From NCBI GenBank assembly GCA_031274925.1, contig JAISPL010000045.1, positions 1 through 63,096 on the forward strand: a DNA stretch of 63,096 nt. Direction: 5' to 3'. Numbering within the stretch: position 1 is the stretch's first letter; each line of letters starts with the position of its first letter. Both the position numbers and the translations under genes were made by a program. The notes under the pieces were generated by a model that was given only the letters and a program-made list of their open reading frames with translations, was not told the DNA's origin and did not search any database. This DNA is from Syntrophobacterales bacterium. GTDB lineage: Bacteria > Desulfobacterota > Syntrophorhabdia > Syntrophorhabdales > Syntrophorhabdaceae. Of this stretch, positions 34,373-39,546 are shown in pieces.

Positions 34373-34945
34373 TTATGTTTTCCGGTATTGTCTCAGGTTG
34401 TCACCCCAGGCGCATCCCTCACGGAATACCTCCAGGTTCTTTTCCGCCACCCTCTTATGAACCTTTTCTCCGATGGTCTTCATGATGTTCTCTTCTGTAT
34501 AGGGCGCTATTGCAAGACGGGAGAAAAATCCGAGAACCGCCATGTTGGAGGCCTGGATCATTCCCAACTGTTTTGCCAGGGCGTCGGCATCAATGAGGTA
34601 CGAGATTGTTTTCCGGCCCATGAGCAATTCGGTAACCGCATCAGGGAGTTTTTTCTTATCCGTGTTGATAACGACAAGCGCTCCTTTCCCGAGGAAACGG
34701 AGGTTCCTGTAAAATTCACTCTCTTCAAAAGCAAGGAGTATACCGGCATTTTCCGCACCTATGAGGGGACTTCTGAAATTACCGATCTTTACAAGGGAAA
34801 CGACCGAGCCGCCTCTCTGGCTCATGCCGTACTCATCCGACGCCATGGCGCTTAGGCCTGCTTTTATGGCAGTCTCCATGAGGATCGTTGAAGCCATGAG
34901 CACGCCCCTTCCTCCTATTCCCGCACATACGATTTCAAGATTCAT
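34373..34945 (-). CDS. iorB: Indolepyruvate:ferredoxin oxidoreductase beta-type subunit (IorB)
   Basis: 190 aa, the length of IorB or the gamma domain of 2-oxoacid:ferredoxin oxidoreductases. The N-terminus EIVCAGIGGRGVLMASTILMET and the segment SDEYGMSQRGGSVVSLVKIG are characteristic of the subunit that binds coenzyme A. With a full IorA it oxidises arylpyruvates to aryl-acetyl-CoA, or the reverse in biosynthesis. Here its partner is an unusually short IorA-like protein. It is the last gene of the group led by trpB2. Confidence 0.9.
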   Translation of the reverse strand: MNLEIVCAGIGGRGVLMASTILMETAIKAGLSAMASDEYGMSQRGGSVVSLVKIGNFRSPLIGAENAGILLAFEESEFYRNLRFLGKGALVVINTDKKKLPDAVTELLMGRKTISYLIDADALAKQLGMIQASNMAVLGFFSRLAIAPYTEENIMKTIGEKVHKRVAEKNLEVFREGCAWGDNLRQYRKT

Positions 34946-34968: not shown

Positions 34969-36207
34969 CTACACAATGCCCTTGTAAAAGAGCACGGTCA
35001 TTTCATTGCTGTCTTTAAAACGCTCTATCTCCGCCGGATTGTCAATATGGAAAAACACCCTGCACCCGCACGCCTCCATAATGCGCTGCATCTCGTTTTC
35101 TCTGGTGGCAGCGAGTATGAGGAGCACGTAAGCTGAGCCATTATACATGGTGTTCACGAGGGCAGGCATGCCGGCCTGAAAAAAATAGTCCTCAAAGGTA
35201 ACGGCGAGTATCTTTATACCAGGCTCTTTCTTCTTTACCCCGTGGGCCATATTGATCGAAGACGCCGCTCCCAGCGTGTCCCGGATCACTTTGAAACCGT
35301 ACATGATCTCCTCCGGCTTCGTTTTTGTCTTAGCACCGAAGGCGGGTCCCCGTATTATCTTCGAGCGGTCGCTTATCTGGAGCTCAATAATAGGGTAAGA
35401 CCCCTCGGCTATGAAAACCTCGTCCATGTCCGCCAAGAACGCCTCTATAAGCTTCAAAGGGAGGGGAAATACGGTGGAGAGACAGAGCATGCTCGCATCA
35501 TCGTCAAAAAATTCAGCCGCAGACCTGGTGTACGTAATAATGCCGGTCCCACCTTTCTTCGTGATCACATTGCCTTCGTAAGCCTCAAACTCTTCCCTGA
35601 TTTTTTCAATTTTTTCATTGAGCTGCCTGTGCAGGTCGTATCTGAATTTCGGCGTTGCCGCCCACCGGTCCGGGTTCTTGATAAAATTCGCCTCACGGAT
35701 CTCGTGTGAACGGGTCCCCGTCTTCCGGTCCGGCCCGCCTACGCCCCGTATACTCTCGCCAGGATGGATGGCGGACTGAATCACTACGGGGATTTCATAC
35801 TTCTCCGATATGGCATATCCGAAACGGACGGCCCGCGCAAGCTCCTCTGCCCCTTCTGCTACCAGGACGGGTAGTTTGGAGAACAGCCCGACAGGCGTGG
35901 CTTCTTCCTCTATCTCCCTCATACAGAGTACGAGAAAACCTCCCGTAATGCCAATATATGCAGAGCTCATCACAGGGTCCAGGGCATCGTAGAGGCCTTC
36001 AGTGGAGAAGATACACGCCCCTCTCTTGGCCGTACAACTCCCTGTAAGGGCAAGCTCAAAGGCAGTCTTCCCGTCAAGGGAGACTTCGGAGTGCATGAAC
36101 GGATAATCCCCTTCAAGGCTTTTAAGGGTCTTTCCGAGCATCCTGTTGGTGGTATGGATAAGGCGCGCCCCTTCATCAAGGAGCAGCTTCACAACGAATT
36201 CGTACAT
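34969..36207 (-). CDS. IorA-like 2-oxoacid oxidoreductase subunit, short, with degenerate TPP site and no ferredoxin domain
   Basis: 412 aa against about 600 for IorA. The pyrimidine-domain region is recognisable (SEVSLDGKTAFELALTGSCT, KRGACIFSTEGLYDALDPVM) and so is the TPP-domain core FFQAGMPALVNTMYN, corresponding to FFHSGIPALINAVYN in IorA. The cofactor motif is altered: GDSTFF becomes FEDYFF, and the DN that follows becomes AA. The CPxCPH-type motif and the C-terminal two-[4Fe-4S] ferredoxin domain are absent. It ends 4 nt after the aminotransferase gene begins its downstream neighbour spacing, i.e. the two genes are 4 nt apart. It may work with an external ferredoxin and TPP subunit, or have a non-redox role with IorB. 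Alignment from memory. Confidence 0.75.
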   Translation of the reverse strand: MYEFVVKLLLDEGARLIHTTNRMLGKTLKSLEGDYPFMHSEVSLDGKTAFELALTGSCTAKRGACIFSTEGLYDALDPVMSSAYIGITGGFLVLCMREIEEEATPVGLFSKLPVLVAEGAEELARAVRFGYAISEKYEIPVVIQSAIHPGESIRGVGGPDRKTGTRSHEIREANFIKNPDRWAATPKFRYDLHRQLNEKIEKIREEFEAYEGNVITKKGGTGIITYTRSAAEFFDDDASMLCLSTVFPLPLKLIEAFLADMDEVFIAEGSYPIIELQISDRSKIIRGPAFGAKTKTKPEEIMYGFKVIRDTLGAASSINMAHGVKKKEPGIKILAVTFEDYFFQAGMPALVNTMYNGSAYVLLILAATRENEMQRIMEACGCRVFFHIDNPAEIERFKDSNEMTVLFYKGIV

Positions 36208-36211
36208 ACTC

Positions 36212-37309
36212 TTACACCATGCTCCTTAGTATCTCGATCCCCTTCAGGAGATTCTCTTCGTTCGCAGCAAAGGAGATCCTGACGTTGGACTTCTTTCCGG
36301 AAAAAACACTGCCCGGAATTATAAACAGGTTCTTATCCAATGCCCTCTCCACGAAAGCATCGCCGTCGCCGTCCGGCACTTCCGGAAAGATAAAGTAAGC
36401 CCCGTTCGGCTTCACGACCCGGAATTTATCCCTTAGTCCTTCGTAGATGAGGTCTCTGCGCCGCCTGTAACCCTCGATAAGGGGGTCTGTATTGTAATCA
36501 AGGGCGACTATTGCCGCCTTCTGAGCAAAAGAATTAATGCTGCTGAACACGTACTGCTGCATGGTGACCATGCACTGAATGATCTGCTCAGGGCCTGCCG
36601 CAAATCCGACTCGCCAGCCGGTCATGGCCCACGTCTTTGAAAACCCGCCGAAAGTGATGGTATTCTCATAAAGCTGGCCCAAGTAGTCCTTCGTGAATCC
36701 ATTGTCATAAACGAACCGGTCGTAGATGTCATCCGAATAGACCAACAAATTCTTCTCCCTGGCGACGCGGGCCACCATTTCCAACTCCTGCCTGGAATTT
36801 ACTTTTCCCGTGGGGTTATTCGGGCTGTTTACAAGGATTATCCTGGTCTTATCCGTAATGGCCGCCCTAAGCACGTCTTCCTTTAGTGTAAAATCGGGAT
36901 AGGTATCAATGAAAACTGGTTTGCCGCCAAGAAGCTGGACCTGGTACTCATAAAGAACGAAGTAGGGATCAGGGATGATCACTTCGTCGCCCGGGTTCAA
37001 TGTGACCATGAGGGCAAGAAGGAGCCCGCCTGTCACCCCTGCAGTAATGATCACGTCGTCGCAGATAATATTCTTCCCTTTAAGGTAAAGGAGGACCTTC
37101 TCCCTCAACTCCGGGATACCACCCGACGGCGTATATTTATTGAATCCTGCCCTGATCCATTTGATGCCCTCTTCCTTGATTTCATCAGGTATGTCGAAAT
37201 GGGGCTCGCCAATGCTTAAGTTAATGGGATCCTTCACCTTGTTTGCAAGGTCGAATATCTTCCTCACCCCAGACGGTCTTACGCTACTCACTCTGTCTGA
37301 GAGAAACAC
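36212..37309 (-). CDS. PLP-dependent aminotransferase, class I/II (aromatic or aspartate type)
   Basis: 365 aa. It has the fold-type I features NLSIGEPHFDIPDEI near the start, AGVTGGLLLAL, NSPNNPTGKV, YSDDIYDRF and the PLP lysine in FGGFSKTWAMTGWRVGF, with the substrate-binding arginine in SNVRISFA. It interconverts an amino acid and its 2-oxoacid. In this group, between trpB2 and the ior genes, an aromatic substrate such as tryptophan/indolepyruvate is likely but not shown. A 177-nt spacer precedes it. Confidence 0.9.
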   Translation of the reverse strand: MFLSDRVSSVRPSGVRKIFDLANKVKDPINLSIGEPHFDIPDEIKEEGIKWIRAGFNKYTPSGGIPELREKVLLYLKGKNIICDDVIITAGVTGGLLLALMVTLNPGDEVIIPDPYFVLYEYQVQLLGGKPVFIDTYPDFTLKEDVLRAAITDKTRIILVNSPNNPTGKVNSRQELEMVARVAREKNLLVYSDDIYDRFVYDNGFTKDYLGQLYENTITFGGFSKTWAMTGWRVGFAAGPEQIIQCMVTMQQYVFSSINSFAQKAAIVALDYNTDPLIEGYRRRRDLIYEGLRDKFRVVKPNGAYFIFPEVPDGDGDAFVERALDKNLFIIPGSVFSGKKSNVRISFAANEENLLKGIEILRSMV

Positions 37310-37748: not shown

Positions 37749-39107
37749 TCACGGTTTGGGAAATTTTTCCAAGTCCTTTATCAGTTCCGCGATATCTTCA
37801 TCAGGGAGCGAGTAATCTTCGAGTTTTCCGCTCATAAAGGCGTCGTAGGAAGGCAGATCAATGATCCCGTGGCCGCTGAAGTTCATTAGTATTACCTTTT
37901 CTTTTCCCTCTTCCTTTGCCCGTTTTGCTTCTTCAATGGCGCATGCGATGGCGTGGTTCGTCTCGGGGGCTGGAATGAATCCCTCGGTCCGCGCAAAAAT
38001 AAGACCCGCGCTGAAGGTCTCAACCTGGTTGTAGGCTTTGGCCTCAATGAGACCGTCCATGAGGACCCTGCTCACAAGGGGCGCCATGCCGTGGTACCGG
38101 AGTCCTCCCGCGTGGATCGGGGCAGGTACGAATCCATGACCGATGGAGTGCATGGGCAGAAGCGGCGTGGTTCCCGCTGTATCACCGAAGTCATAGGTAT
38201 AAGGCCCTTTGGTAAGCGTTGGGCACGAAGTGGGCTCGGAGGCGATGATTCTCACTTCTTTTCCGTGGATCTTGTCCCTTACGAAGGGGAACGTGAGACC
38301 TCCAAAATTGCTGCCTCCGCCCGCACATCCTATCACCACATCAGGATACTCGCCCGCGATGGCTAATTGTTTCTCTGCCTCAAGGCCGATGATGGTCTGA
38401 TGCATGATGACGTGGTTGAGTACGCTCCCTAACGAATACTTCGTATCTTTGGATGTGACGCAGTCCTCGATAGCTTCGCTGATGGCAATGCCAAGGCTTC
38501 CTGAATGCTCGGGATTCTCGGCTAAGAATTTCCTTCCTACGCTCGTGTCGGGACTCGGACTGGGCACGCACCTGCCTCCCCATGTCTCCATCATGATCCT
38601 CCGGTATGGCTTCTGGTTGTAGCTGACCCGCACCATGTATACCTTAATGTCAAGGCCGAACTGGTTGCATGCGAAAGAGATGGCGCTCCCCCATTGGCCG
38701 GCGCCGGTTTCGGTCGTGAGTCTCTTGATGCCGGCAATCTTGTTGTAATAAGCTTGTGCGATGGCCGTATTCGGCTTATGGCTCCCGGCAGGGCTTACCC
38801 CCTCGTTCTTATAATAAATGTGCGCGGGCGTTCCCAGGAACTGTTCCAGAGCATAGGCGCGGCAAAGAGGTGAGGGCCTGTACATGAGGAGTCTTTCCAT
38901 CACTTCATCCGGAATGTCGATCCATCTCTCGGTACTCACCTCCTGCTCAATCAGGTTCATGGGGAGAATGGGCGCGAGCATGTCGGGAGTGATTGGTTCT
39001 CCGGTTGCGGGGTTGAGGGGCGGCGGAAGGGGGTTGGGCAGATCCGCCTGAATATTGTACCAAGCCCTCGGCATATCCTTCTCAGTCAAAAAGATCTTCT
39101 TCTCCAT
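37749..39107 (-). CDS. trpB: Tryptophan synthase beta chain, TrpB2 type
   Basis: 452 aa from the ATG preceded by AAGGAGGAAGATA; an ATG 42 nt further upstream would overlap the leader terminator. The PLP lysine is in [17 protein letters not shown], with the family-specific [23 protein letters not shown] (trimmed: [10 protein letters not shown]) and [11 protein letters not shown] phosphate-binding loop. Length and the [10 protein letters not shown]-terminus identify the TrpB2 class, which acts without a tightly bound TrpA and condenses indole with serine. It is the first gene behind a Trp-codon leader and terminator hairpin, so its control by tryptophan supply is directly visible. Confidence 0.94.
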
Positions 39108-39132
39108 TATCTTCCTCCTTATCACGAAATAG

Positions 39133-39162
39133 AAAAGGCCATGAGTCACACATCATGGCCTT
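39133..39162 (-). terminator. Attenuator terminator hairpin of the trpB2 leader
   Basis: Minus strand: AAGGCCATGA and TCATGGCCTT form a perfect 10-bp stem with an 8-nt loop, followed by TTCTATTTC. It sits 26-55 nt before the trpB2 start codon. The upstream arm GGCCATGA can instead pair with TCATGGCC at 39174-39181, which would prevent this hairpin. Confidence 0.85.
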
Positions 39163-39173
39163 TAAACAAAATC

Positions 39174-39224
39174 GGCCATGAACGGTGTGAAACCGTCCAT
39201 GGCCAGAGATCGCGGTTTCACACC
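39174..39224 (-). promoter_or_regulatory. Competing pause and antiterminator hairpins of the trpB2 leader
   Basis: In transcript order: A = GGTGTGAAACCG (39224-39213), B = GGCCATGG (39204-39197), A' = CGGTTTCACACC (39195-39184), B' = TCATGGCC (39181-39174). A pairs perfectly with A' over 12 bp and encloses B. B can pair with B', helped by inner ACGG/CCGT. B' can pair with the first arm of the terminator. A begins at the last base of the leader stop codon. A ribosome finishing the leader would cover A, letting B-B' and then the terminator form. A ribosome stalled on the Trp codons leaves A-A' free, so B' can block the terminator. Confidence 0.75.
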
Positions 39225-39283
39225 TATAATATTCTCTGCCACCACCACCAGTTTGATTTGGAGATAATTGTTCCGTTGAGCAT
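39224..39283 (-). CDS. trpL: trp leader peptide, 19 aa with four consecutive Trp codons
   Basis: ATG to TAG, peptide MLNGTIISKSNWWWWQRIL. Residues 12-15 are four consecutive TGG codons, 8-20 nt before the stop, exactly the design of ribosome-mediated trp attenuators. It is followed by mutually exclusive hairpins and an intrinsic terminator, then trpB2. No good Shine-Dalgarno is visible; the nearest promoter would place the transcript start only a few bases before the ATG, so the leader may be translated from a nearly leaderless mRNA. Confidence 0.88.
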   Translation of the reverse strand: MLNGTIISKSNWWWWQRIL

Positions 39284-39292
39284 AATAATAGT

Positions 39293-39321
39293 CATATAGC
39301 ATACAGAGAGCGCGAAGTCAA
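39293..39321 (-). promoter_or_regulatory. Candidate promoter of the trpL-trpB2 group
   Basis: Minus strand TTGACT (39321-39316), 17-nt spacer, TATATG (39298-39293). An alternative -10 TATAAT lies at 39330-39325. A perfect 12-bp palindrome CCAAGCGCTTGG at 39348-39359 lies just upstream and could be an operator. Confidence 0.5.
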
Positions 39322-39415
39322 GTTATTATATATGGTCCAAATAGGGTCCAAGCGCTTGGGTGGGGGAGCATTTTCATTGACAATATACGATTTTACGATT
39401 ATAACAAACCCTAAT

Positions 39416-39500
39416 GCCTGGGTGGCGGAACAGGTAGACGCAAGGGACTTAAAATCCCTCGGTCCTCGCGGCTGTACGGGTTCGATTCCCGTCCTAGGCA
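39416..39500 (+). tRNA. tRNA-Leu (UAA)
   Basis: 85 nt with a long variable arm. Acceptor GCCTGGG pairs with CCTAGGC, the anticodon loop is CTTAAAA (anticodon TAA), and the T arm is GGGTTCGATTCCC. The CCA end is not encoded, unlike the tRNA-Ala gene in this window. A half copy of the dispersed repeat begins directly at its 3' end. Confidence 0.96.
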
Positions 39501-39546
39501 TTTAACTCTACGGGTCTAATTCCACGCACCTTGAGGCACGCGCTTA
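39501..39546 (-). repeat. Half copy of the dispersed repeat at the tRNA-Leu 3' end (copy F)
   Basis: TTTAACTCTACGGGTCTAAT followed by GAGGCACGCGCTTA matches only the AGATTAAA half of the family. The hairpin end is missing. It abuts the tRNA-Leu discriminator base, a typical place for element insertion. Confidence 0.7.

Follow-up and report, generated by a model that had tools for sequence, protein, structure and literature searches.

In this work we present a sequence-based analysis of the leader preceding trpB2 in a Syntrophobacterales bacterium, which is very probably a ribosome-mediated transcription attenuator of the relay type, reading the supply of charged tRNA-Trp. The leader lies in the window, i.e. 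the whole 63,096-nucleotide stretch of DNA analysed (genome G000). In the proposed mechanism RNA polymerase would start just 5' of the leader ATG and a ribosome would load on the near-leaderless transcript. When charged tRNA-Trp is scarce, this ribosome would stall at the Trp codons with its leading edge just short of arm A, and A would pair with A' once A' is transcribed, before B' exists. The A:A' helix would trap B, B' would pair with T, T:T' would be blocked and trpB2 with the aminotransferase and IOR (indolepyruvate oxidoreductase) genes would be transcribed. When Trp is plentiful, the ribosome would proceed to the stop codon and cover arm A, with which this codon overlaps, allowing B:B' to form; this hairpin, a protector and possibly a first terminator, would leave T free for T' and transcription would end.

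All features are collected in Table 1. The 19-codon frame with four consecutive TGG codons, claimed by a reading made from the sequence alone (hereafter the sequence-only reading), matches the minus strand base for base. The four mutually exclusive arms, the 12-bp A:A' stem and the intrinsic terminator before trpB2 described there are likewise read directly in the window copy. Arm A' overlaps B by 3 nt and B' by 2 nt, which makes A:A' and B:B' directly exclusive of each other. The B':T helix comprises 8 bp. Terminator-like calls were obtained on both B:B' (39205-39173) and T:T' (39163-39134); since B:B' is itself trailed by a U-rich tract, there are potentially two tandem terminators. Folding of the leader region gave z = -4.8 relative to shuffled sequences, none of 200 shuffles being as good. 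The 12-mer TGGTGGTGGTGG occurs once in the 63 kb window and in none of 100 shuffles.

Table 1. Elements of the trpB2 attenuator and genes placed under its control (positions in the window)
Feature	Positions	Strand	Remarks
-35 box TTGACT	39316..39321	-	sequence; TTGAC(A/T) with a 17-nt spacer also before relatives' leaders
-10 box TATATG	39293..39298	-	17 nt after the -35 box, 9 nt before the leader ATG
Leader peptide ORF, MLNGTIISKSNWWWWQRIL and stop	39224..39283	-	ATG 39283-39281, stop TAG 39226-39224, 19 codons
Four regulatory Trp codons (TGG x4), TGGTGGTGGTGG	39239..39250	-	WWW or WWWW in other leaders
Arm A, GGTGTGAAACCG	39213..39224	-	begins on the final base of the leader's stop codon
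Arm B, GGCCATGGACGG	39193..39204	-	5' arm of the protector / first potential terminator
Arm A', CGGTTTCACACC	39184..39195	-	pairs with A, 12 bp
Arm B', CCGTTCATGGCC	39174..39185	-	partner is B, or T once B is trapped
U-rich tract after B:B', GATTTTGTTTA	39163..39173	-	sequence
Arm T, AAAGGCCATGA	39153..39163	-	5' arm of the final terminator; alternative partner of B'
Arm T', TCATGGCCTTT	39134..39144	-	final intrinsic terminator, then U-rich tail
Shine-Dalgarno region of trpB2, AAGGAGGAAG	39111..39120	-	sequence
trpB2 (TrpB-like PLP enzyme)	37749..39107	-	first controlled gene; ATG at 39107
Class I/II aminotransferase	36212..37309	-	second controlled gene
Short IorA-like protein	34969..36207	-	without the CPGCPHR, GDIGC, GDS..DNS and Fe-S (ferredoxin) segments of full IorA
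IorB-like (indolepyruvate oxidoreductase beta / POR domain)	34373..34945	-	profile

From the position of the promoter boxes, transcription of the trpB2 leader is predicted to start at about 39284-39288, with a 5' UTR of about 1-5 nt. In all leaders of alignment A1, which comprises 27 Syntrophorhabdales leaders, the first in-frame start codon falls 6-11 nt past the -10 box. This conserved spacing bears out the earlier remark that the leader is nearly leaderless; the 5' UTRs would measure about 0-5 nt and translation of the leader is probably leaderless throughout A1. One exception is the leader of a TRAP transporter operon in genome G017 (L160), with an apparent Shine-Dalgarno sequence. The same geometry weighs against our reading, as the near-leaderless Trp-codon ORF offers no room for a Shine-Dalgarno sequence and its translation is an assumption. 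The A1 leaders carry WWW or WWWW, in some cases WxWWW, in a short ORF before trpB2; tandem codons of the regulating amino acid are thus found between promoter and first gene.

Position of the Trp codons relative to arm A is nearly constant. The last Trp codon is separated from A by 11 nt in 20 of the 27 leaders, by 8 nt in four, by 14 nt in two and by 10 nt in one. The stop codon starts 2 nt ahead of A in 23 leaders and 7 nt ahead in one; in three it starts 4 nt inside the arm. A ribosome covers about 12 nt counted from the first base of its A-site codon, so when stalled on the last Trp codon it would leave A free or with one base covered, and at the stop codon it would cover most of A. The codons are therefore placed such that a stalled ribosome would free the first arm and a terminating one would cover it.

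Pairs were counted across A1 on the structure read from the window. For A:A', 98.1% of cells were paired, with both-sided changes in 5 of the 12 pairs; the respective values were 98.5% and six pairs for B:B', 94.5% and two pairs for T:T', and 99.2% and one pair for B':T. When the partners were slid by 1-3 columns as a control, only 21-55% were paired. No shuffle equalled the covariation score of A1, but related sequences can exceed shuffles, and for this reason we put the weight on two-sided changes and on independent copies. The sequence-only reading had staked its case on Trp codons and covarying arms in homologous leaders; both are kept, and 12 further copies agree, so that mutually exclusive antiterminator and terminator helices are maintained in relatives.

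These data also bear on the least probable of the alternatives, that two ordinary tandem intrinsic terminators end upstream readthrough, with a short ORF present by chance and no regulation. Both stems do look like terminators, and B:B' and T:T' share the sequence GGCCATG. However, groEL, which lies upstream, ends in a separate terminator at 39672-39644, with a promoter in between, and the A:A' stem, which belongs to neither terminator, is kept with its five two-sided changes. Conserved Trp codons, stop position and spacing, as well as duplication of the promoter-plus-leader cassette before another operon, speak further against such a coincidence and for attenuation.

A covariance model built from A1 was searched in related genomes and matched at E < 1e-20 in 30 of 37 Syntrophorhabdaceae-family genomes and at E < 1e-12 in all seven genomes of the order's other families. 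Twelve copies found by the model were outside the training set, at least 10 of them not before trpB2. In these, A:A' and B':T were paired in 98.8% of cells, in an alignment that was fitted to the model and so leans towards it, and at one B':T pair UA replaced CG in three of the 12.

The latter replacement is relevant to a simpler attenuator, which we consider unlikely, though less so than chance terminators: A:A' would only block the terminator B:B', T:T' would be an independent or constitutive weaker terminator, and B':T a by-product of shared sequence. It draws on the U tracts, that of B:B' being as rich as that of T:T' (mean 7.2 and 6.7 T in 9 nt in the 27 trpB2 leaders), and on the near-palindrome GGCCATGG, which is present in both stems, is nearly self-complementary and could partly explain the B':T complementarity. 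Yet B':T pairing persists in 99.2% and 98.1% of cells while B' varies in step with B, a constraint that, along with the UA for CG, argues for the relay. Moreover, several TRAP or aminotransferase copies have a degraded U tract behind B:B' (TCAGAG, TTCAAG, TTTAAA) and B' and T still pair in them, so that B:B' is there a protector only. In the trpB2 leaders B:B' may serve as first terminator; judging by its degraded U tract in those copies, its basic role looks like that of a protector.

Folding was consistent with the relay in its early step. With the transcript folded up to A' and a stalled ribosome in place, the probability of A:A' was 0.8-1.0 in 27 of 27 leaders. In the complete leader at equilibrium, B:B' and T:T' win in nearly all leaders with the ribosome in either position; the only leaders with appreciable A:A' under a stalled ribosome are L017 (0.51) and L022 (0.34). 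Equilibrium thus favours termination and the switching must be kinetic. The earlier claim that the switch logic works therefore stands as regards anatomy, conservation and covariation, and does not stand at equilibrium, where the terminator is favoured whatever the ribosome position and only kinetic switching fits. The need for kinetic trapping counts against our reading. A pseudoknot joining B and B' while A:A' stands seems sterically impossible, as B, A' and B' abut closely.

In the ribosome-free transcript the probability of A:A' averaged 0.84 and exceeded 0.9 in most leaders; it was near 0 in L012 and L021, where A is sequestered, and partly weakened in L003, L023 and L030. No arm 1, i.e. 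an upstream partner of A, was consistently conserved among the A1 leaders. As A:A' forms with no ribosome and such an arm is missing, an untranslated leader should read through. We infer a default-on state in the absence of translation, with L012 and L021 as exceptions, so that it would not be universal.

Beyond the order, the same succession of arms (UCUGCCCA / UGGGCAGGGA / CUUCCCAUGACUC / UGCCAUGGGAAG / CCAUGGCA), in unrelated sequence and with a longer 5' UTR, precedes trpB2 in Syntrophales and other Desulfobacterota (11 loci, arms read by eye). In the Nitrospirae TrpB2 loci (L039-L043) no leader with a Trp run was seen. In a single leader upstream of trpB2, L028 of genome G007, Trp codons and arm A have decayed together; a gene search did not find trpA, trpC and trpD in that genome. 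L028 retains B:B' and T:T', both with matching GGCC-to-GACC/GGTC changes.

Weak matches of the model (E about 1e-7 to 1e-6) had been candidates for chance terminators, which was rejected, as all seven inspected carry Phe/Tyr-rich leader ORFs, e.g. MNEFTPYFGFYFYFRNSHPGINLL (L184, L185, L186, L188, L189 and L190 of G005, G004, G009, G032, G040 and G018, and L187 of G002). They have tandem hairpins of the GGCCATGG type, and in six of the seven a second aminotransferase gene (PRK06836-like) follows at short distance. They apparently represent a parallel Phe/Tyr attenuator.

The regulated proteins were assigned by profile and sequence. The trpB2 product exceeds the curated cut-offs of PRK12391 (741 bits, cut-off 366) and TIGR01415 (668 bits, cut-off 518.85) and is a COG1350-type TrpB2. 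Of 60 related genomes, 56 carry relatives of it, the named close ones belonging to Syntrophorhabdus and other Syntrophorhabdaceae, which probably places the window in this family as well. The usual gene order after the switch is trpB2, aminotransferase, short IorA and IorB, often followed by full IorA; in three genomes (G028, G003, G037) the switch stands directly before the aminotransferase-IOR genes, with trpB2 missing. Judging from the segments it lacks, the short IorA-like protein alone is probably not a working ThDP enzyme. In Syntrophorhabdaceae its gene is conserved beside IorB and often full IorA. Upstream of the full-length iorA of G000 (contig C6) no attenuator was seen.

A further copy of the switch precedes TRAP transporter genes in G000 and in seven genomes of genus g5. 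In G000 this copy (L155) seems to stem from the duplication of one segment that held promoter, leader and the neighbouring tRNA-Leu(TAA) gene. The two tRNA-Leu(TAA) genes, at 39415-39501 and L155:7943-8029, are each divergent from one attenuator. A perfect palindrome, CCAAGCGCTTGG, lies upstream of both attenuator promoters in this genome (39348-39359 and L155:7876-7887) and is absent from every fetched locus of other genomes; it could be an operator, or merely part of the duplicated segment. Other DctP orthologues mostly have no Trp leader upstream, with a degenerate one in G016. At L156 (G006, contig C99) dctQM comes after the TRAP attenuator and a long dctP reading frame is missing; dctP may be lost or broken there. 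The closest solved relatives of the G000 TRAP DctP are 4n6d, 4pgn/4pgp and 4nap (396 to 330 bits), of which we take 4pgn, 4pgp and 4nap to be Dde_0634 of Desulfovibrio alaskensis with indolepyruvate, indoleacetate and D-tryptophan. According to the literature, Dde_0634 binds indoleacetate.

The sequence-only reading had rightly noted that the controlled genes do not form a standard trp operon. In G000 (97% complete) trpA, trpB1 (canonical trpB), trpC and trpD were not found, and the same holds for G001, G007, G008, G013, G016, G017, G019, G021 and G022, with one sub-threshold trpA fragment in G013. By contrast, trpS turned up in each of the 36 genomes searched. Canonical trp operons of G002, G006 and G010 (L171, L174, L175) have a Trp leader of other architecture, with peptides ending in NWWWGS, NVWWWGS and NIWWWDS and a hairpin on ACCGTTTAAG / GTTTAAACGG.

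Taken together, the switch-controlled genes would constitute a Trp-salvage regulon. In G000, where it includes at least the trpB2 operon and the TRAP transporter, Trp is most likely obtained from imported indole compounds, a reading which follows from the de novo genes not being found. A more specific scheme is tentative and has in our view somewhat less than an even chance: in bacteria whose de novo pathway has been lost, a relay-type attenuator with a leaderless ORF would govern TRAP import of indoleacetate/indolepyruvate, a reductive (carboxylating) IOR with a degenerate IorA partner, the aminotransferase, and a TrpB2 acting on free indole. The indoleacetate route needs an enzyme of the phenylacetate-CoA-ligase-like kind, and in G000 one was found only below the curated cut-off of the family.

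IOR and aminotransferases often serve in amino acid degradation. The operon could accordingly be catabolic, degrading aromatic amino acids via IOR, with the leader mediating another response, e.g. TnaC-like induction by Trp. This is very improbable, since the architecture makes Trp scarcity the on-signal and intrinsic terminators adjoin the leader; furthermore, the Trp codons are in tandem rather than single, trpB2 is the first gene, and many of the genomes are devoid of de novo Trp genes.

Attenuators tell the purpose of genes, as those switched on when Trp is lacking make or import Trp. The present one is relevant to what stand-alone TrpB2 does and to what IOR does in anaerobes, where aromatic amino acids may be made or degraded; both roles are unsettled. 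Should the salvage scheme be true, scavenged indole acids would be the source of Trp, and the attenuator would show the in vivo direction of TrpB2 and IOR. A prediction from the attenuator is that these syntrophs import indole compounds from the community for Trp synthesis. An indole-scavenging role of TrpB2 was proposed earlier (PMC2700814), and Pyrococcus horikoshii is a trpB2-only genome with no other trp genes (PMC1854888).

Among Rfam families, including the trp operon leader, only two tRNAs scored above the gathering cut-off in the window, with no relevant match up to E 10, and the T-box covariance model did not match in it. Our literature search, mostly of sources other than subscription journals, returned no earlier description of a Desulfobacterota trpB2 attenuator. 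One of the closest known systems is trpL of E. coli, a short ORF with tandem Trp codons, where stalling leads to the antiterminator and completed translation to the intrinsic terminator. The tandem Trp codons in a short ORF and the proposed stall-dependent choice of antiterminator are common to both. In contrast to trpL, the target here is trpB2-aminotransferase-IOR instead of trpEDCBA, a relay of four competing helices replaces the single 2:3 / 3:4 choice, and the leader is devoid of a Shine-Dalgarno sequence. The E. coli-type pairing of arm 1 with arm 2, which terminates an untranslated leader, was not found; such a leader is here predicted to read through, whereas E. coli shows superattenuation. 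The leaders thus offer a natural test series for a relay attenuator with a leaderless ORF, whose default in the absence of translation is predicted to be on, the reverse of E. coli.

Another related system is the enterobacterial his operon attenuator with its arms A-F. For the ilvBNC attenuator of Corynebacterium glutamicum an antiantiterminator has been described (PMC11857589). Both resemble our switch in the relay of more than two alternative hairpins and respond to other amino acids; unlike in his, the first arm is missing here, hence the predicted read-through when translation does not occur. The trpL / rnTrpL of Sinorhizobium meliloti is a leaderless Trp attenuator with a transcript beginning at the leader ATG (PMC7298713), but it controls trpE(G), so the regulon differs. 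Finally, an attenuator was predicted upstream of trpB2A in Corynebacterium diphtheriae, described as a biosynthetic operon with trpA (PMC1262725), whereas here a COG1350-type TrpB2 is encoded with aminotransferase and IOR genes; on our reading, the name trpB2 denotes different types in the two cases.
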